A stretch of 64,000 nucleotides of DNA, from the NCBI GenBank assembly GCA_024710705.1, contig JANJUF010000062.1, forward strand, positions 1 through 64,000, in the 5' to 3' direction. This stretch comes from Gemmatimonadaceae bacterium. GTDB lineage: Bacteria; Gemmatimonadota; Gemmatimonadetes; Gemmatimonadales; Gemmatimonadaceae. Shown piece by piece: positions 12,437 to 40,469 of this stretch; the stretch's first letter is position 1; the number at the start of each line of letters is the position of its first letter. The notes beneath the pieces are model-generated. The model had not been told where the DNA came from, ran no database searches, and saw only the letters and a program-made list of their open reading frames with translations. The position numbers and the translations under genes were made by a program.

Positions 12437-13425
12437 GGCTCGCCGTGATCGGCGCGGGCGCCTGGGGCACCGCGCTGGCCAATCTCCTGGCCGAGAACGA
12501 CCACGAGGTGTTGCTCTGGGCCTTCGAGCCCGACGTGGTGGAGTCCATCAACGCCCACGCCGAGAACCGACGCTTCCTCGGCGGTGTGCCGCTGCACCCG
12601 TCGCTGCGCGCCTCCGGGAACATGGACCTGGTGGTGGAGGGTGCGGACCTCGCCCTCTTCGTGGCGCCGTCGCACGTGCTGCGGCAGGTCGCGACGTCCA
12701 GTGCCCGCGCCATGCCGGCCGGCATCCCGCTGGTGGTGGCCACGAAGGGCATTGACCGCGAGAAGCTCTCGCTCATGACGGACGTGGTGGACGACGAGGT
12801 GGCGGGACATCCGATCGTGGCGCTGAGCGGGCCGAGCTTCGCGATGGAAGTGGCCAATCACCTGCCGACGGCCATCGTCGCGGCATCCACCGACCACGAG
12901 GCCGCCCTGCTCACCCAACGCGCCCTCAGTACCTCGGCGTTCCGGGTGTATACGCAGTCGGACGTGATCGGCGTGGAGCTCGGCGGTGCGCTCAAGAACG
13001 TGATGGCCGTGGCCACCGGCATCGCCGACGGGCTGCAGCTTGGCTTCAACGCCCGGGCGGCCCTGATCACGCGCGGGCTCGCCGAGATGACGCGACTCGG
13101 CGTCAAGCTTGGCGCCGATCCGCAGACCTTCGCGGGGCTCGCCGGCATCGGCGACCTGGTGCTCACGTGCACCGGATCGCTTTCGCGCAATCGCTCGGTC
13201 GGACTCGAGATCGGGCGCGGCGCCACGCTGAGCGAGGTGCTCCAGGGCCGCGACACCGTGGCCGAGGGCGTCACCACCACCGAGTCGGCCAAGGCGCTGG
13301 CCGAACGCGAGGGCGTCGAGATGCCGATCGTGCAGGCCGTGCATCGCGTGCTCTTCGAGAAGCAGCCGGCCCGCTGGGCGCTCGTGGAACTGATGACCCG
13401 CGACCTGAAGGCGGAGAACGACTGA
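12433..13425 (+). CDS. gpsA: NAD(P)H-dependent glycerol-3-phosphate dehydrogenase
   Basis: MRLAVIGAGAWGTALANLLAENDHEV, ALSGPSFAMEV, GGALKNVMAVATGIADG. Confidence 0.95.
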   Translation: MRLAVIGAGAWGTALANLLAENDHEVLLWAFEPDVVESINAHAENRRFLGGVPLHPSLRASGNMDLVVEGADLALFVAPSHVLRQVATSSARAMPAGIPLVVATKGIDREKLSLMTDVVDDEVAGHPIVALSGPSFAMEVANHLPTAIVAASTDHEAALLTQRALSTSAFRVYTQSDVIGVELGGALKNVMAVATGIADGLQLGFNARAALITRGLAEMTRLGVKLGADPQTFAGLAGIGDLVLTCTGSLSRNRSVGLEIGRGATLSEVLQGRDTVAEGVTTTESAKALAEREGVEMPIVQAVHRVLFEKQPARWALVELMTRDLKAEND

Positions 13426-20121: not shown

Positions 20122-20195
20122 GCCCCCGTAGCTCAGGTGGATAGAGCGACGGTTTCCTAAACCGCAGGTCGGCGGTTCGAGTCCGCCCGGGGGCA
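20122..20195 (+). tRNA. tRNA-Arg (anticodon CCT)
   Basis: Acceptor GCCCCCG...CGGGGGC+A, D-loop GCTCAGGTGGATAGAGC, anticodon loop TTCCTAA, T-arm GGCGGTTCGAGTCCGCC; CCA not encoded. Confidence 0.95.
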
Positions 20196-20331: not shown

Positions 20332-20985
20332 ATGACCAAGACCGGCGACGCGGCCCTTCCGCCACTCGACCTCGAATCGTCCTCCGTAGCTGACCTGGTG
20401 CAGCGCTACCAGCGTCCCCTGATCATCGGTGCCATCGTCGTTGCTGGGCTTGGGGTGGGCGGGTGGCTGTACCAGCGGTCGGCGGCGATCCGGGAGATTC
20501 GGGCCGCCGAAGCGCTTGGCCAAGCCGAGTCCGCGTACAGCACCGGGGGCGTGGCCGGGGCGCAGACGGAGATGGCGAAGATCATCGCCCGATACAGCGG
20601 CACGGCGGCCGGGGCGCAGGCGGCCGCACTTTCGGCGCAGTGGTACTTCGAGGCGGGGCAGGTGGATAGCGGGCTGGTCCAGCTCGAGGCCGGGTTGCCG
20701 AAGGCGCCCGCGTTCATGAAGTCTGGGCTCCTTGCGTTGCGGGCGGCCGGCAAGAGCGCCAAGGGCGAGTTCGCGGCAGCAGCGGCCGACTTCGAAGCCG
20801 CAGCGTCAGCCGCGCAATTCCGTCAGGAGGCGGACCAGCTACGCATGCAGGCCGCTCGGGAGCACGTCGCGGCTGGTCAGCTCGAGCAGGCGCGAGCGAT
20901 CTACAACGACATCTCGAGTCGCGAGGATTCGTCTCACTCCGTTGAAGCGCGCCTAAGGCTCGGCGAGATAACAGCTAAGAGCTGA
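20332..20985 (+). CDS. YfgM-like single-TM tetratricopeptide-repeat protein
   Basis: Cytoplasmic N-terminus, one TM (PLIIGAIVVAGLGVGGWLY), TPR-like C-terminus. Confidence 0.75.
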   Translation: MTKTGDAALPPLDLESSSVADLVQRYQRPLIIGAIVVAGLGVGGWLYQRSAAIREIRAAEALGQAESAYSTGGVAGAQTEMAKIIARYSGTAAGAQAAALSAQWYFEAGQVDSGLVQLEAGLPKAPAFMKSGLLALRAAGKSAKGEFAAAAADFEAAASAAQFRQEADQLRMQAAREHVAAGQLEQARAIYNDISSREDSSHSVEARLRLGEITAKS

Positions 20986-21037: not shown

Positions 21038-21124
21038 CGCTGTTTGGGCACTGACTCCGCTTCAGCTGTCGCGATGGAGGCTCGAAAATCGGACGGGGAG
21101 CCGCCCACTCCGGACAATCTACCA

Positions 21125-21152
21125 ACTACGCATAATATGTATTATGTATTGT
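21125..21152. other. dif: Candidate chromosomal dif site (XerC/XerD recombination site)
   Basis: ACTACGCATAA TATGTA TTATGTATTGT; 11-6-11 architecture; CGCATAA...TTATGT core as recalled for E. coli dif; AT-rich island at a convergent strand-switch intergenic gap. Confidence 0.75.
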
Positions 21153-21190
21153 TGCTTTGGGGATAACCGGCCGATTTCCACTGGCTGACC

Positions 21191-22009
21191 CTAGAGCTCG
21201 CGAAGCAGCCCCTCAAAAACGATCCTCCCCTCCCCAGCCAAGGTTGGTTTGCGGGCCCCAGAGCCTGAGGAATCGCCCCCCAGGCGCACACTCAGCACGC
21301 GCCCGGAGCGAGTCCGCAGGTCGGTCGAGTCCCCGGACTCTCCCCACGCCTTCAGCAAGGCGGCGGTGGCCACAGCGCCGGTTCCGCAGGCCAGCGTCTC
21401 GGCCTCGACCCCCCGTTCGTACGTGCGCATCGCCCACGTGCCGTCTGCGTCCTTGGCCACCCAATTCACGTTCGCGCCGGCCGGGAGACTGGGGTGGTAG
21501 CGCAATTCTGGGCCCCGGTCCGCCAGCGGAATGAGCCGGAGGTCGGAGGTCCGGACGACGAGGTGCGGAACGCCGGAGTTTGCGAACCCGAGGGCCGATT
21601 CCCCCACGTGCCTGGAAATGCCGGCGTCAGGCCGCAGCCCGGTGATGGCCTGCAGCTCGACCTCCGGACGGCCGCCCACGATCCGCCCGCTGATGCGCCC
21701 CGCCCCGGTTTCGAAGCTCAGCCCGTCGGCGTGGGCGAGGCCGAGTTCGGTGGAGAGGCGGACGGCACAGAGCGACGCGTTGCCGCAGAGTTCCCCTTCG
21801 CTGCCATCCCGGTTGAAGTAGGCCAATGCGAAATCGGCGGTCGCCGATCGCCGGAACACGGCCACGCCATCCGCCCCAACTCCCGTGTGCGGCGCGCACA
21901 CCTCCCGCACGAAGTCTGGGTCCGTCGCTCGGGCGCCGCTCGCGGGATCCCCGACCCCGTCCACGAAGACGAAGTCGTTGCCGCTTCCGGACATCTTCCA
22001 GAATCGCAT
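21191..22009 (-). CDS. dapF: Diaminopimelate epimerase
   Basis: MRFWKMSGSGNDFVFVD, ELCGNASLCAVR, ETLACGTGAVATAA active-site Cys motifs. Confidence 0.92.
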   Translation of the reverse strand: MRFWKMSGSGNDFVFVDGVGDPASGARATDPDFVREVCAPHTGVGADGVAVFRRSATADFALAYFNRDGSEGELCGNASLCAVRLSTELGLAHADGLSFETGAGRISGRIVGGRPEVELQAITGLRPDAGISRHVGESALGFANSGVPHLVVRTSDLRLIPLADRGPELRYHPSLPAGANVNWVAKDADGTWAMRTYERGVEAETLACGTGAVATAALLKAWGESGDSTDLRTRSGRVLSVRLGGDSSGSGARKPTLAGEGRIVFEGLLREL

Positions 22010-22014
22010 GCCGG

Positions 22015-22737
22015 TCACACGCGTCCCGTGAGCGCCCACCAGCGGAGCCGCCACACCATGAAGATCGCCTCGCGCACGATGTGACCGGACATCTTGCTCT
22101 CCCCCTCAGTGCGGTCGGCGAACACGATGGGAATCTCCACCGGCCTGAATCCCTTTCTCACCGCCCGGAAGGACATCTCGATCTGGAAGGCGTAGCCGTT
22201 CGAGCGCACGTCCTCGAGGTCGATAGCCTGCAGCACGCGTCGGTGAAAGCACTTGAAGCCCCCCGTTGCGTCCCAGAGCTTGAGTCCCGTCACCAGCCGC
22301 GCATAGATGTTGGCCCCGTAGCTCAGCAGCAGCCGGCTGATGGGCCAGTTCACCACGGTGACCTTTCCGTTGAGGTACCGCGAGCCGAGCACGAAGTCGG
22401 CGGACTCGGCGGCCTCGAGGAACTGCGGCAGGTGGTCCGGATCGTGACTGAAGTCCGCATCCATCTCGAAGATCAGCTCGTAGTCGCGCGCGAGGGCCCA
22501 GCGGAATCCATCGCGATACGCGGTGCCCAGTCCCATCTTGCCGGGTCGGCGCATGAGGTGCACGCGCGGATTGGCCTCCACGATGCTGGCGACGACATCG
22601 CCGGTGCCATCCGGGGAGTTGTCGTCCACGATCAGGATTTCGAGGCGGGCGTCCTTGGCCAGCACGCGCTCAATCAGTACCTCGACGTTCGCCCGCTCGT
22701 TGAAGGTGGGCGTGATGACGAGCGCGCGCTCAGGCAT
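22015..22737 (-). CDS. Polyprenol monophosphomannose synthase-like GT2
   Basis: ALVITPTFNERANVEVLIERVL, ILIVDDNSPDGTGDVV, EMDADFSHDP, GSRYLNG; Dpm1-like. Confidence 0.9.
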   Translation of the reverse strand: MPERALVITPTFNERANVEVLIERVLAKDARLEILIVDDNSPDGTGDVVASIVEANPRVHLMRRPGKMGLGTAYRDGFRWALARDYELIFEMDADFSHDPDHLPQFLEAAESADFVLGSRYLNGKVTVVNWPISRLLLSYGANIYARLVTGLKLWDATGGFKCFHRRVLQAIDLEDVRSNGYAFQIEMSFRAVRKGFRPVEIPIVFADRTEGESKMSGHIVREAIFMVWRLRWWALTGRV

Positions 22738-38959: not shown

Positions 38960-39543
38960 GCCTGCACCTCGCTGAGGGTCAGGAAATTCTCCAGCATCCG
39001 ACGCCCGTCCTCCGTCCCGATCGACTCGGGATGAAACTGCACGCCCATCACCGGGTGCGTCCGGTGACGGACCGCATGGATCTCCGTGGGGTCGTCCACT
39101 GCGGTTGCCGTGATCTCCAGCGATGCCGGCAGCGACCCATGGGCGATGACCAGCGAGTGGTACCGCATCACCTCCACCGGCGTGGCAATGCCCGAGAACA
39201 GCCCCGTCCCGTCGTGCTGCACGCGCGAGGTCTTGCCATGCATCACCCCGCGCGGCGCCCGGATTACCGTGCCGCCGTATGCCTCCCCGATGGCCTGGTG
39301 CCCCAGGCAGACGCCCAGCATCGGGATCGTCGCGCCGAAGTGCTGGATGAGCGGCACGGTCACGCCGGCATCGCGGGGCGTCCCCGGGCCCGGACCAAGC
39401 ACGATGGCGCGGGGGGCCATCCGCGCGATGTCGGTGAGCGTGATGGCGTCGTTGCGCACCACCTGCGGATCGGCGCCGAGCTCCCCGAAGAGCTGGACCA
39501 AGTTGAACGTGAACGAGTCGTAGTTGTCGATGACGAGGAGCAT
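38956..39543 (-). CDS. Anthranilate/aminodeoxychorismate synthase glutamine amidotransferase
   Basis: MLLVIDNYDSFTFNLVQLFGELG, GPGPGTP, GVCLGHQAI, GVQFHPESI; trpG versus pabA not resolvable here. Confidence 0.93.
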   Translation of the reverse strand: MLLVIDNYDSFTFNLVQLFGELGADPQVVRNDAITLTDIARMAPRAIVLGPGPGTPRDAGVTVPLIQHFGATIPMLGVCLGHQAIGEAYGGTVIRAPRGVMHGKTSRVQHDGTGLFSGIATPVEVMRYHSLVIAHGSLPASLEITATAVDDPTEIHAVRHRTHPVMGVQFHPESIGTEDGRRMLENFLTLSEVQA

Positions 39544-40469
39544 CAGCCTCTCGGATGGAACTGCTTGTGCACCTGACGAAGATGCTCGCGGTCGATGTGC
39601 GTGTACAGCTGCGTGGTGGAGATGTCGGAGTGCCCCAGCATCTCCTGCACCGCCCGCAGGTCCGCCCCACCCTCCAGCAGATGCGTGGCGAAGCTGTGCC
39701 GCAGCGTGTGCGGGGTGATTGGCTTGGCGATGCCCGACCGTTCCACGTACTTGGCGAGGATGGTCCACGCGGTCATGCGCCGGAGCGGCGCCCCCCGTGA
39801 GTTGAGGAACAACTTCCCTTCCCCCTTCCCCCTTTCCAACCGCGGTCGCAGCTCCCGCAGGTAGATGCCCACCGCGCCGGCGGCCTTTCGCCCGATGGGT
39901 ACGATGCGCTCCTTGCCGCCCTTCCCGAACACCCGCACCACCAGCTCATCGAGCAGCACGTCCTTCACTTCAAGGGAGCACCACTCACTCACCCGGAGCC
40001 CGGCACCGTAGGCAAGCTCCAGCAACGCGCGATCACGGAAGGCGAATTCGTCGTCGAGTGAGATGCTCTCGATCAACCGTTCCACCTCCGCCACCGTGAG
40101 CACGTCGGGCAGCTTGCGCCAGCCGCGCGGCGTCTCGAGCTTCTCGCTGGGATCGGCCTTGACCACGCCCTCGGCGAGCAGAAACCGATACCAGGTCCGC
40201 ACGGCCGAGATGCGTCGCTTGATGGTCGCCGCCGAGCGTCCTTGGTCCTTGAGCGAATACACCCATTCCCGCAGGTGCGCGGCGTTGAGGTCCTCGGCCC
40301 GGGACACGCCGTGCTTCGCGCTGGCCCACTCCGCCAGCAGTGCCAGGTCGCGGGCATACGCCTCCTGCGTGCGGGGACTCGCGCCCTGCTCGAGGTCGAG
40401 ATACTCGGCGAAGCGTTCGAGCAGGAAGCGGCGGGCCAGCGAACTGGCGTCCGGGGTGGCGGGGCTCAC
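39543..40469 (-). CDS. xerD: Site-specific tyrosine recombinase XerD
   Basis: HTLRHSFATHLLEGGADLRAVQEMLGHSDISTTQLYTHIDREHLRQVHKQFHPRG catalytic block. Confidence 0.92.
   Translation of the reverse strand: MSPATPDASSLARRFLLERFAEYLDLEQGASPRTQEAYARDLALLAEWASAKHGVSRAEDLNAAHLREWVYSLKDQGRSAATIKRRISAVRTWYRFLLAEGVVKADPSEKLETPRGWRKLPDVLTVAEVERLIESISLDDEFAFRDRALLELAYGAGLRVSEWCSLEVKDVLLDELVVRVFGKGGKERIVPIGRKAAGAVGIYLRELRPRLERGKGEGKLFLNSRGAPLRRMTAWTILAKYVERSGIAKPITPHTLRHSFATHLLEGGADLRAVQEMLGHSDISTTQLYTHIDREHLRQVHKQFHPRG

Follow-up and report, generated by a model that had tools for sequence, protein, structure and literature searches.

The dif site is where joined sister chromosomes are separated before division, and it is generally described as self-sufficient, with XerC, XerD and FtsK being enough. 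The 64,000-nucleotide stretch of Gemmatimonadaceae DNA analysed here (the window, part of contig C128 of its own assembly) contains a 28-mer between converging genes that a preliminary description put forward as a candidate chromosomal dif site. This raises the question of whether the 28-mer is dif and, if so, whether dif stands alone in these bacteria. Our analysis supports the first point, and we consider it highly likely that dif is accompanied here by a co-conserved accessory box, a judgement that does not extend to DnaA as the protein that would bind it.

The 28-mer and the replication terminus

The full 28-mer, ACTACGCATAATATGTATTATGTATTGT, occupies positions 21125-21152 of the + strand. 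The proposed 11-6-11 layout is borne out at these exact coordinates, with a total length of 28 bp and conserved inner arms. The site and its two neighbouring genes are arranged as follows.

20332..20985, + strand: converging gene left of dif, 217 aa (ORF; no NCBIfam match)
21125..21135, + strand: dif XerC arm, ACTACGCATAA (aligned with the family dif; family consensus ACTACGTATAA)
21136..21141, + strand: dif central hexamer, TATGTA (from alignment with the family dif)
21142..21152, + strand: dif XerD arm, TTATGTATTGT (outer bases diverged from the family's TTATGTAAACT)
21191..22054, - strand: dapF, converging gene right of dif (TIGR00652, E 1.7e-51)

The gap between converging genes is as originally described, with the left ORF ending at 20985 (+) and dapF at 21191 (-), but the TPR label given to the left gene is not upheld, its product having no NCBIfam match. 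A tRNA-Arg (CCT) gene lies at 20122-20195 of the window, about 0.9 kb left of dif. A recount agrees with the 20/28 identities to B. subtilis dif quoted in the preliminary description, and the inner TTATGT of the XerD arm is invariant across the family (107/107 sites).

The 28-mer is the sole match at up to 3 mismatches in its own draft assembly (3.0 Mb, 137 contigs), where a reversed control pattern has 0 matches. Relatives likewise carry a single copy in nearly all cases, and the rare double matches occur in draft genomes, mostly with one copy near a contig end. Within the window a weaker dif consensus has 1 match against 0.01 expected by chance, and a matrix built from family relatives, with the window's own sequence left out, scores 43.2 bits at 21125-21152. 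The next three matrix matches (12, -4 and -12 bits) all fall on this stretch, read on the opposite strand or in a shifted register, and unrelated sites in the window reach -12 bits at most. Conservation in relatives, a check that had been suggested for the candidate, is extensive. A relaxed dif pattern was found in 149/180 family genomes, almost always once, with 0 matches to its reversed control across all 180, and a shorter pattern recovers dif in 309/398 genomes of the class. Same-genus genomes missed by the relaxed pattern mostly contain a diverged dif copy at the dapF end (L297, L298, L300, L303 and L304), with no diverged copy seen in L299 or in the partial locus L305. Among family loci of testable length, nearly all have dapF adjoining dif, at a distance from dif to the dapF end that varies from about 40 to 460 bases.

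Several lines of evidence place the site at the terminus. Accumulated along the window, the G-C curve reaches its peak at 21100, a point that lies 25 bases from dif. Words matching GGGNAGGG, the E. coli KOPS, number 5 on the + strand and 0 on the - strand to the left of dif, and 2 on the + strand and 8 on the - strand to its right, with the closest on the right pointing at dif.

21228..21235, - strand: nearest right-hand KOPS word, GGGNAGGG, pointing at dif (window KOPS scan)

G070 is a same-genus chromosome of 3,136,119 bases, of which 800 kb were sampled evenly for skew; in that sample GGGNAGGG is the most leading-strand-skewed one-N octamer (105 vs 30). The G070 skew sum is highest at 1.41-1.65 Mb and lowest at ~2.9 Mb, with dif at 1.479 Mb inside the maximum and dnaA at 2.98 Mb by the minimum. 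Where the chromosome is in one contig (G022, G048, G098 and G070), dnaA and dif are separated by 42-48% of its length, and in G022, G048 and G098 dif lies ~42-45% of the chromosome from dnaA. The window peak, the G070 skew and the dnaA distances therefore all agree with dif at the GC-skew switch, the location that the preliminary description had flagged for checking. A position near the origin, considered since the box described below resembles a DnaA box, is ruled out by the dnaA distances.

The window also encodes a recombinase.

39543..40469, - strand: xerD, 308 aa, 18.4 kb from dif (TIGR02225, 359 bits, cut-off 329.6)

The XerC profile TIGR02224 gives this product 326.5, below its cut-off of 335.15. 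A profile search of the window's own genome returned XerD over cut-off (C128:39549-40418) and a second full-length homologue (C54:29736-30632), such that both XerC and XerD are encoded. XerD, a second XerC/D-like protein and an FtsK gamma domain are present in 8/8 genomes tested. The gamma domain accompanies converging KOPS, the match in the window's own genome lying at a contig edge with one internal stop. In 8/8 genomes examined the distance between xerD and dif is 17-22 kb, with xerD on the side of the XerD arm, whereas the survey of Kono et al. reports a trend for xerC to be close to dif and for xerD to be close to the origin (PMC3025954).

Uniqueness, position and conservation together support the assignment of 21125-21152 as the chromosomal dif. 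By itself this dif is an ordinary new member of its class, and the phylum already had one predicted dif in 2011, when Kono et al. predicted dif in 578 genomes, one of them of Gemmatimonadetes (PMC3025954). The new dif is nonetheless useful for marking the terminus in a phylum that has received little study.

A conserved box outside dif

A conserved box lies just outside the 28-mer, and was overlooked in the preliminary description, as was xerD in the window. When 107 distinct family sites are aligned on dif, columns +8 to +25 past the XerD arm hold 0.3-1.3 bits each, and, apart from the base touching each end of dif, nearly every other column of the flanks has about 0.0-0.3 bits. Mean pairwise identity among family sites is 0.80 for dif, 0.45 for +6..+26 and 0.26-0.28 for the other flanks, the flank sets having been picked by pattern and thus being biased toward well-conserved dif. 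Given these identities, the flanks are saturated and the boxes appear to be under selection.

The box was scored as TGTGGANAAC, with at least 7 of its nine fixed letters matching. It is present on the XerD side in 110/112 family sites against 21/994 control windows (2%), noting that the consensus derives from the very sites scored and the control windows were taken from the same loci. Since relatedness keeps the 112 sites from being independent, counting by genus is safer, and on this count the box occurs in 31/32 genera, the exception being g25 with GTGGAAA at +7. Box starts cluster at +6/+7 and/or +16/+17, one helical turn apart and in the same direction, and 87/205 sites examined have a box at the +6 offset (+/-2). 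The tandem 10-bp spacing is rare elsewhere, with at most 2 occurrences per genome and often one of these at dif. The box and its spacing, like the position and conservation of dif itself, are direct readings of the sequence.

Sites from the sister family f2 and from outside the family were fetched later and provide a fresh test of the box. In f2, box 2 is found exactly at +16 in 20/20 sites and box 1 in 6, and a further 43 outside-family sites (three of f2 among them) yield the box in 19, mainly in f6 and f4. No box was seen among the few sites from f7, f8, f10 and f11, and the XerD side in f5 is without it (0/30), from which it follows that the box cannot be a general requirement for dif. In about eight f5 sites it is the XerC side that bears the box, which again reads outwards and lies at about +10 to +12; on either side of dif it is the G-rich strand of the box that reads away. 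The f5 loci L310-L312, L391, L400, L403, L404 and L408 carry gttttccaca on the XerC side about 10-12 bp out, an apparent side switch.

The window has its own version of this arrangement.

21158..21167, + strand: dif-adjacent box 1, TGGGGATAAC, +6 from the dif end (8/9 match to TGTGGANAAC)
21173..21182, - strand: possible second box, inverted, AGTGGAAATC (weak, 7/9 match; replaces the direct box 2 at +16/+17 of most relatives)

The inverted second-box layout is common to the window, G070, G110 and G160, all of which have also lost the AAACT with which the family's XerD arm ends; in its place the three same-genus genomes share the TATTGT/TATAAT endings with the window. Because its second box is weak and inverted and the AAACT ending is lost, the window is a diverged example of the composite, with one good box and one weak inverted box. 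A same-genus subgroup (window 21142-21152, L021, L298 and L300) combines a changed outer XerD arm (TATTGT/TATAAT) with a lost or inverted box 2.

No earlier description of a conserved box beside dif was found in the open-access literature on dif, DnaA boxes and Xer, and the text searched of Kono et al. 2011 has no discussion of elements flanking dif (PMC3025954).

Candidate ligands of the box

From these sequence comparisons we infer that a protein binds the box, which protein this might be and how it may affect recombination. Read on the opposite strand, the box becomes GTTNTCCACA, a near match to the DnaA box TTATCCACA, and we tentatively favour DnaA as the most likely single ligand, while stopping short of calling it probable. 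Box-like words, mostly TGTGGATAAG, are found upstream of dnaA in 8/8 genomes, with few boxes around dnaA in several of them, and in G016, G031 and G055 additional box-like words lie between dnaA and the next gene. A perfect 10-bp-spaced box pair is also located just 3' of parB in G055 (L354 2056-2075) and G016 (L358 1802-1821), where parA and parB were identified by reading of translations. A third box lies about 70 bp from the parB pair in both genomes, the cluster being at the start of a lipoprotein gene, and G031 (L359) has a box cluster similar to that beside parB.

The fit of the box to the DnaA consensus TTATCCACA is imperfect. The box is TTNTCCACA-like, and the perfect DnaA word, TGTGGATAA, is found in only 9/217 boxes, with box 2 favouring TGTGGAGAAC or TGTGGGAAAC, a poorer DnaA fit. 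As a separate observation, a protein with two DnaA AAA+ domain-like stretches and without the DnaA DNA-binding domain is encoded in 5/8 genomes (G000:C108:15678-17453, G070, G022, G048 and G098); where the chromosome is in one contig, as in four of these, about 200-300 kb separate it from dif.

A credible alternative, which we hold about as tentatively as DnaA, is that the composite stands and the box binds a dedicated terminus protein, such as a fork barrier, a terminus organiser or an Xer accessory factor. Such a protein would account for a box 2 that is one position off the canonical DnaA word and for a tandem spacing seldom seen away from dif. However, similar words beside dnaA and parB are as expected of DnaA, and no candidate for a dedicated terminus protein was identified.

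The remaining readings fare considerably worse. The box might be a KOPS-like word read by FtsK and serve as a loading site beside dif, and GTGGRNAA is indeed commoner on the G070 leading strand (80 vs 28). This is very unlikely because the G-rich strand of the box points away from dif, opposite to the direction expected of a word that guides a motor towards dif, and because the most skewed one-N octamer of the genus is GGGNAGGG, whose copies in the window converge on dif; the polarity and the GGGNAGGG skew thus both speak against a KOPS reading. We give similarly little credence to a plain dif in which the box is a leftover of the dapF 3' region or a terminator between the converging genes, despite the close association of dif with the dapF end and the inverted TTCTCCAC partner found downstream of box 2 at some sites. 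The inverted partner occurs only in a minority of sites, and the stretch +1..+55 folds no more stably than the upstream flank (mean folding-energy z -0.94 vs -0.99). The distance from box to dif is fixed while that from dif to the dapF end varies, and some loci, L024 for example, have boxes with no dapF in range. With no additional folding stability, and with a spacing that tracks dif rather than dapF, both a terminator hairpin and a dapF-linked element are unlikely. Finally, dif-like sites can be carried by phages and other elements, and the family word does occur on one unrelated viral contig, but the idea that the 28-mer arose by chance as an AT-rich palindrome, or serves a mobile element as attachment site, can be set aside almost entirely, as it is unique, lies at the skew switch and keeps the same dapF neighbourhood across genera, with a chance match ruled out by uniqueness, matrix score and family conservation.

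A model for the composite and its relation to known systems

In the model that we propose, XerC would occupy the left arm of dif and XerD the right arm, with FtsK, steered by converging GGGNAGGG words, arriving at dif and activating XerD such that chromosome dimers are resolved. The class-wide composite would add a DNA-binding protein seated on a single TGTGGANAAC box or on two direct boxes separated by one helical turn, 6-26 bp past the XerD arm, or past the XerC arm instead in some lineages. A second element at fixed spacing across most of the class suggests that another protein participates. If DnaA were present at the box, it may make the activity of the site depend on the state of replication, or shape the side from which XerD and FtsK enter. 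The fullest form of this proposal, in which the Gemmatimonadota dif is a composite switch and DnaA gates dimer resolution or fork completion from a position one or two helical turns away from the XerD arm, is speculative and on balance unlikely. If true, gating by DnaA would directly connect the start of replication with the final step of chromosome segregation, and the resemblance to the DnaA box makes a link from replication control to dimer resolution testable.

The site is similar to the XerC/XerD-FtsK dif of E. coli and B. subtilis in being 28 bp long with an 11-6-11 layout, single copy and located at the GC-skew switch, and in the presence of XerC, XerD, the FtsK gamma domain and converging KOPS. 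It differs from E. coli K-12 dif in the box at fixed spacing, E. coli K-12 being without a box on either side. Plasmid Xer sites are also comparable, as they couple an Xer core to adjoining protein-binding DNA, binding here being predicted. The plasmid site cer has about 180 bp of accessory sequences and uses ArgR and PepA (PMC5357621), whereas the boxes here span 10-20 bp beside a chromosomal site with a 6-bp spacer. Carnoy and Roten 2009 argue from the 6-bp spacer that proteobacterial chromosomal dif can do without accessory elements (PMC2731167). The likeness to the DnaA boxes of oriC and other DnaA-binding loci lies in the reverse complement of the box and in the similar words beside dnaA and parB; unlike oriC boxes, those described here are at the terminus, are variable at the third position and keep a fixed spacing to dif.

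The viral contig carrying the family word is L416 (IMG/VR, 14.7 kb, 42% GC), which appears tailed-phage-like and has ATTGCGCATAATATGTATTATGTAAACT at 12704-12731 beside apparent packaging genes. This copy is a possible Xer-dependent attachment site, and from base composition the host of L416 is probably not a member of this family.
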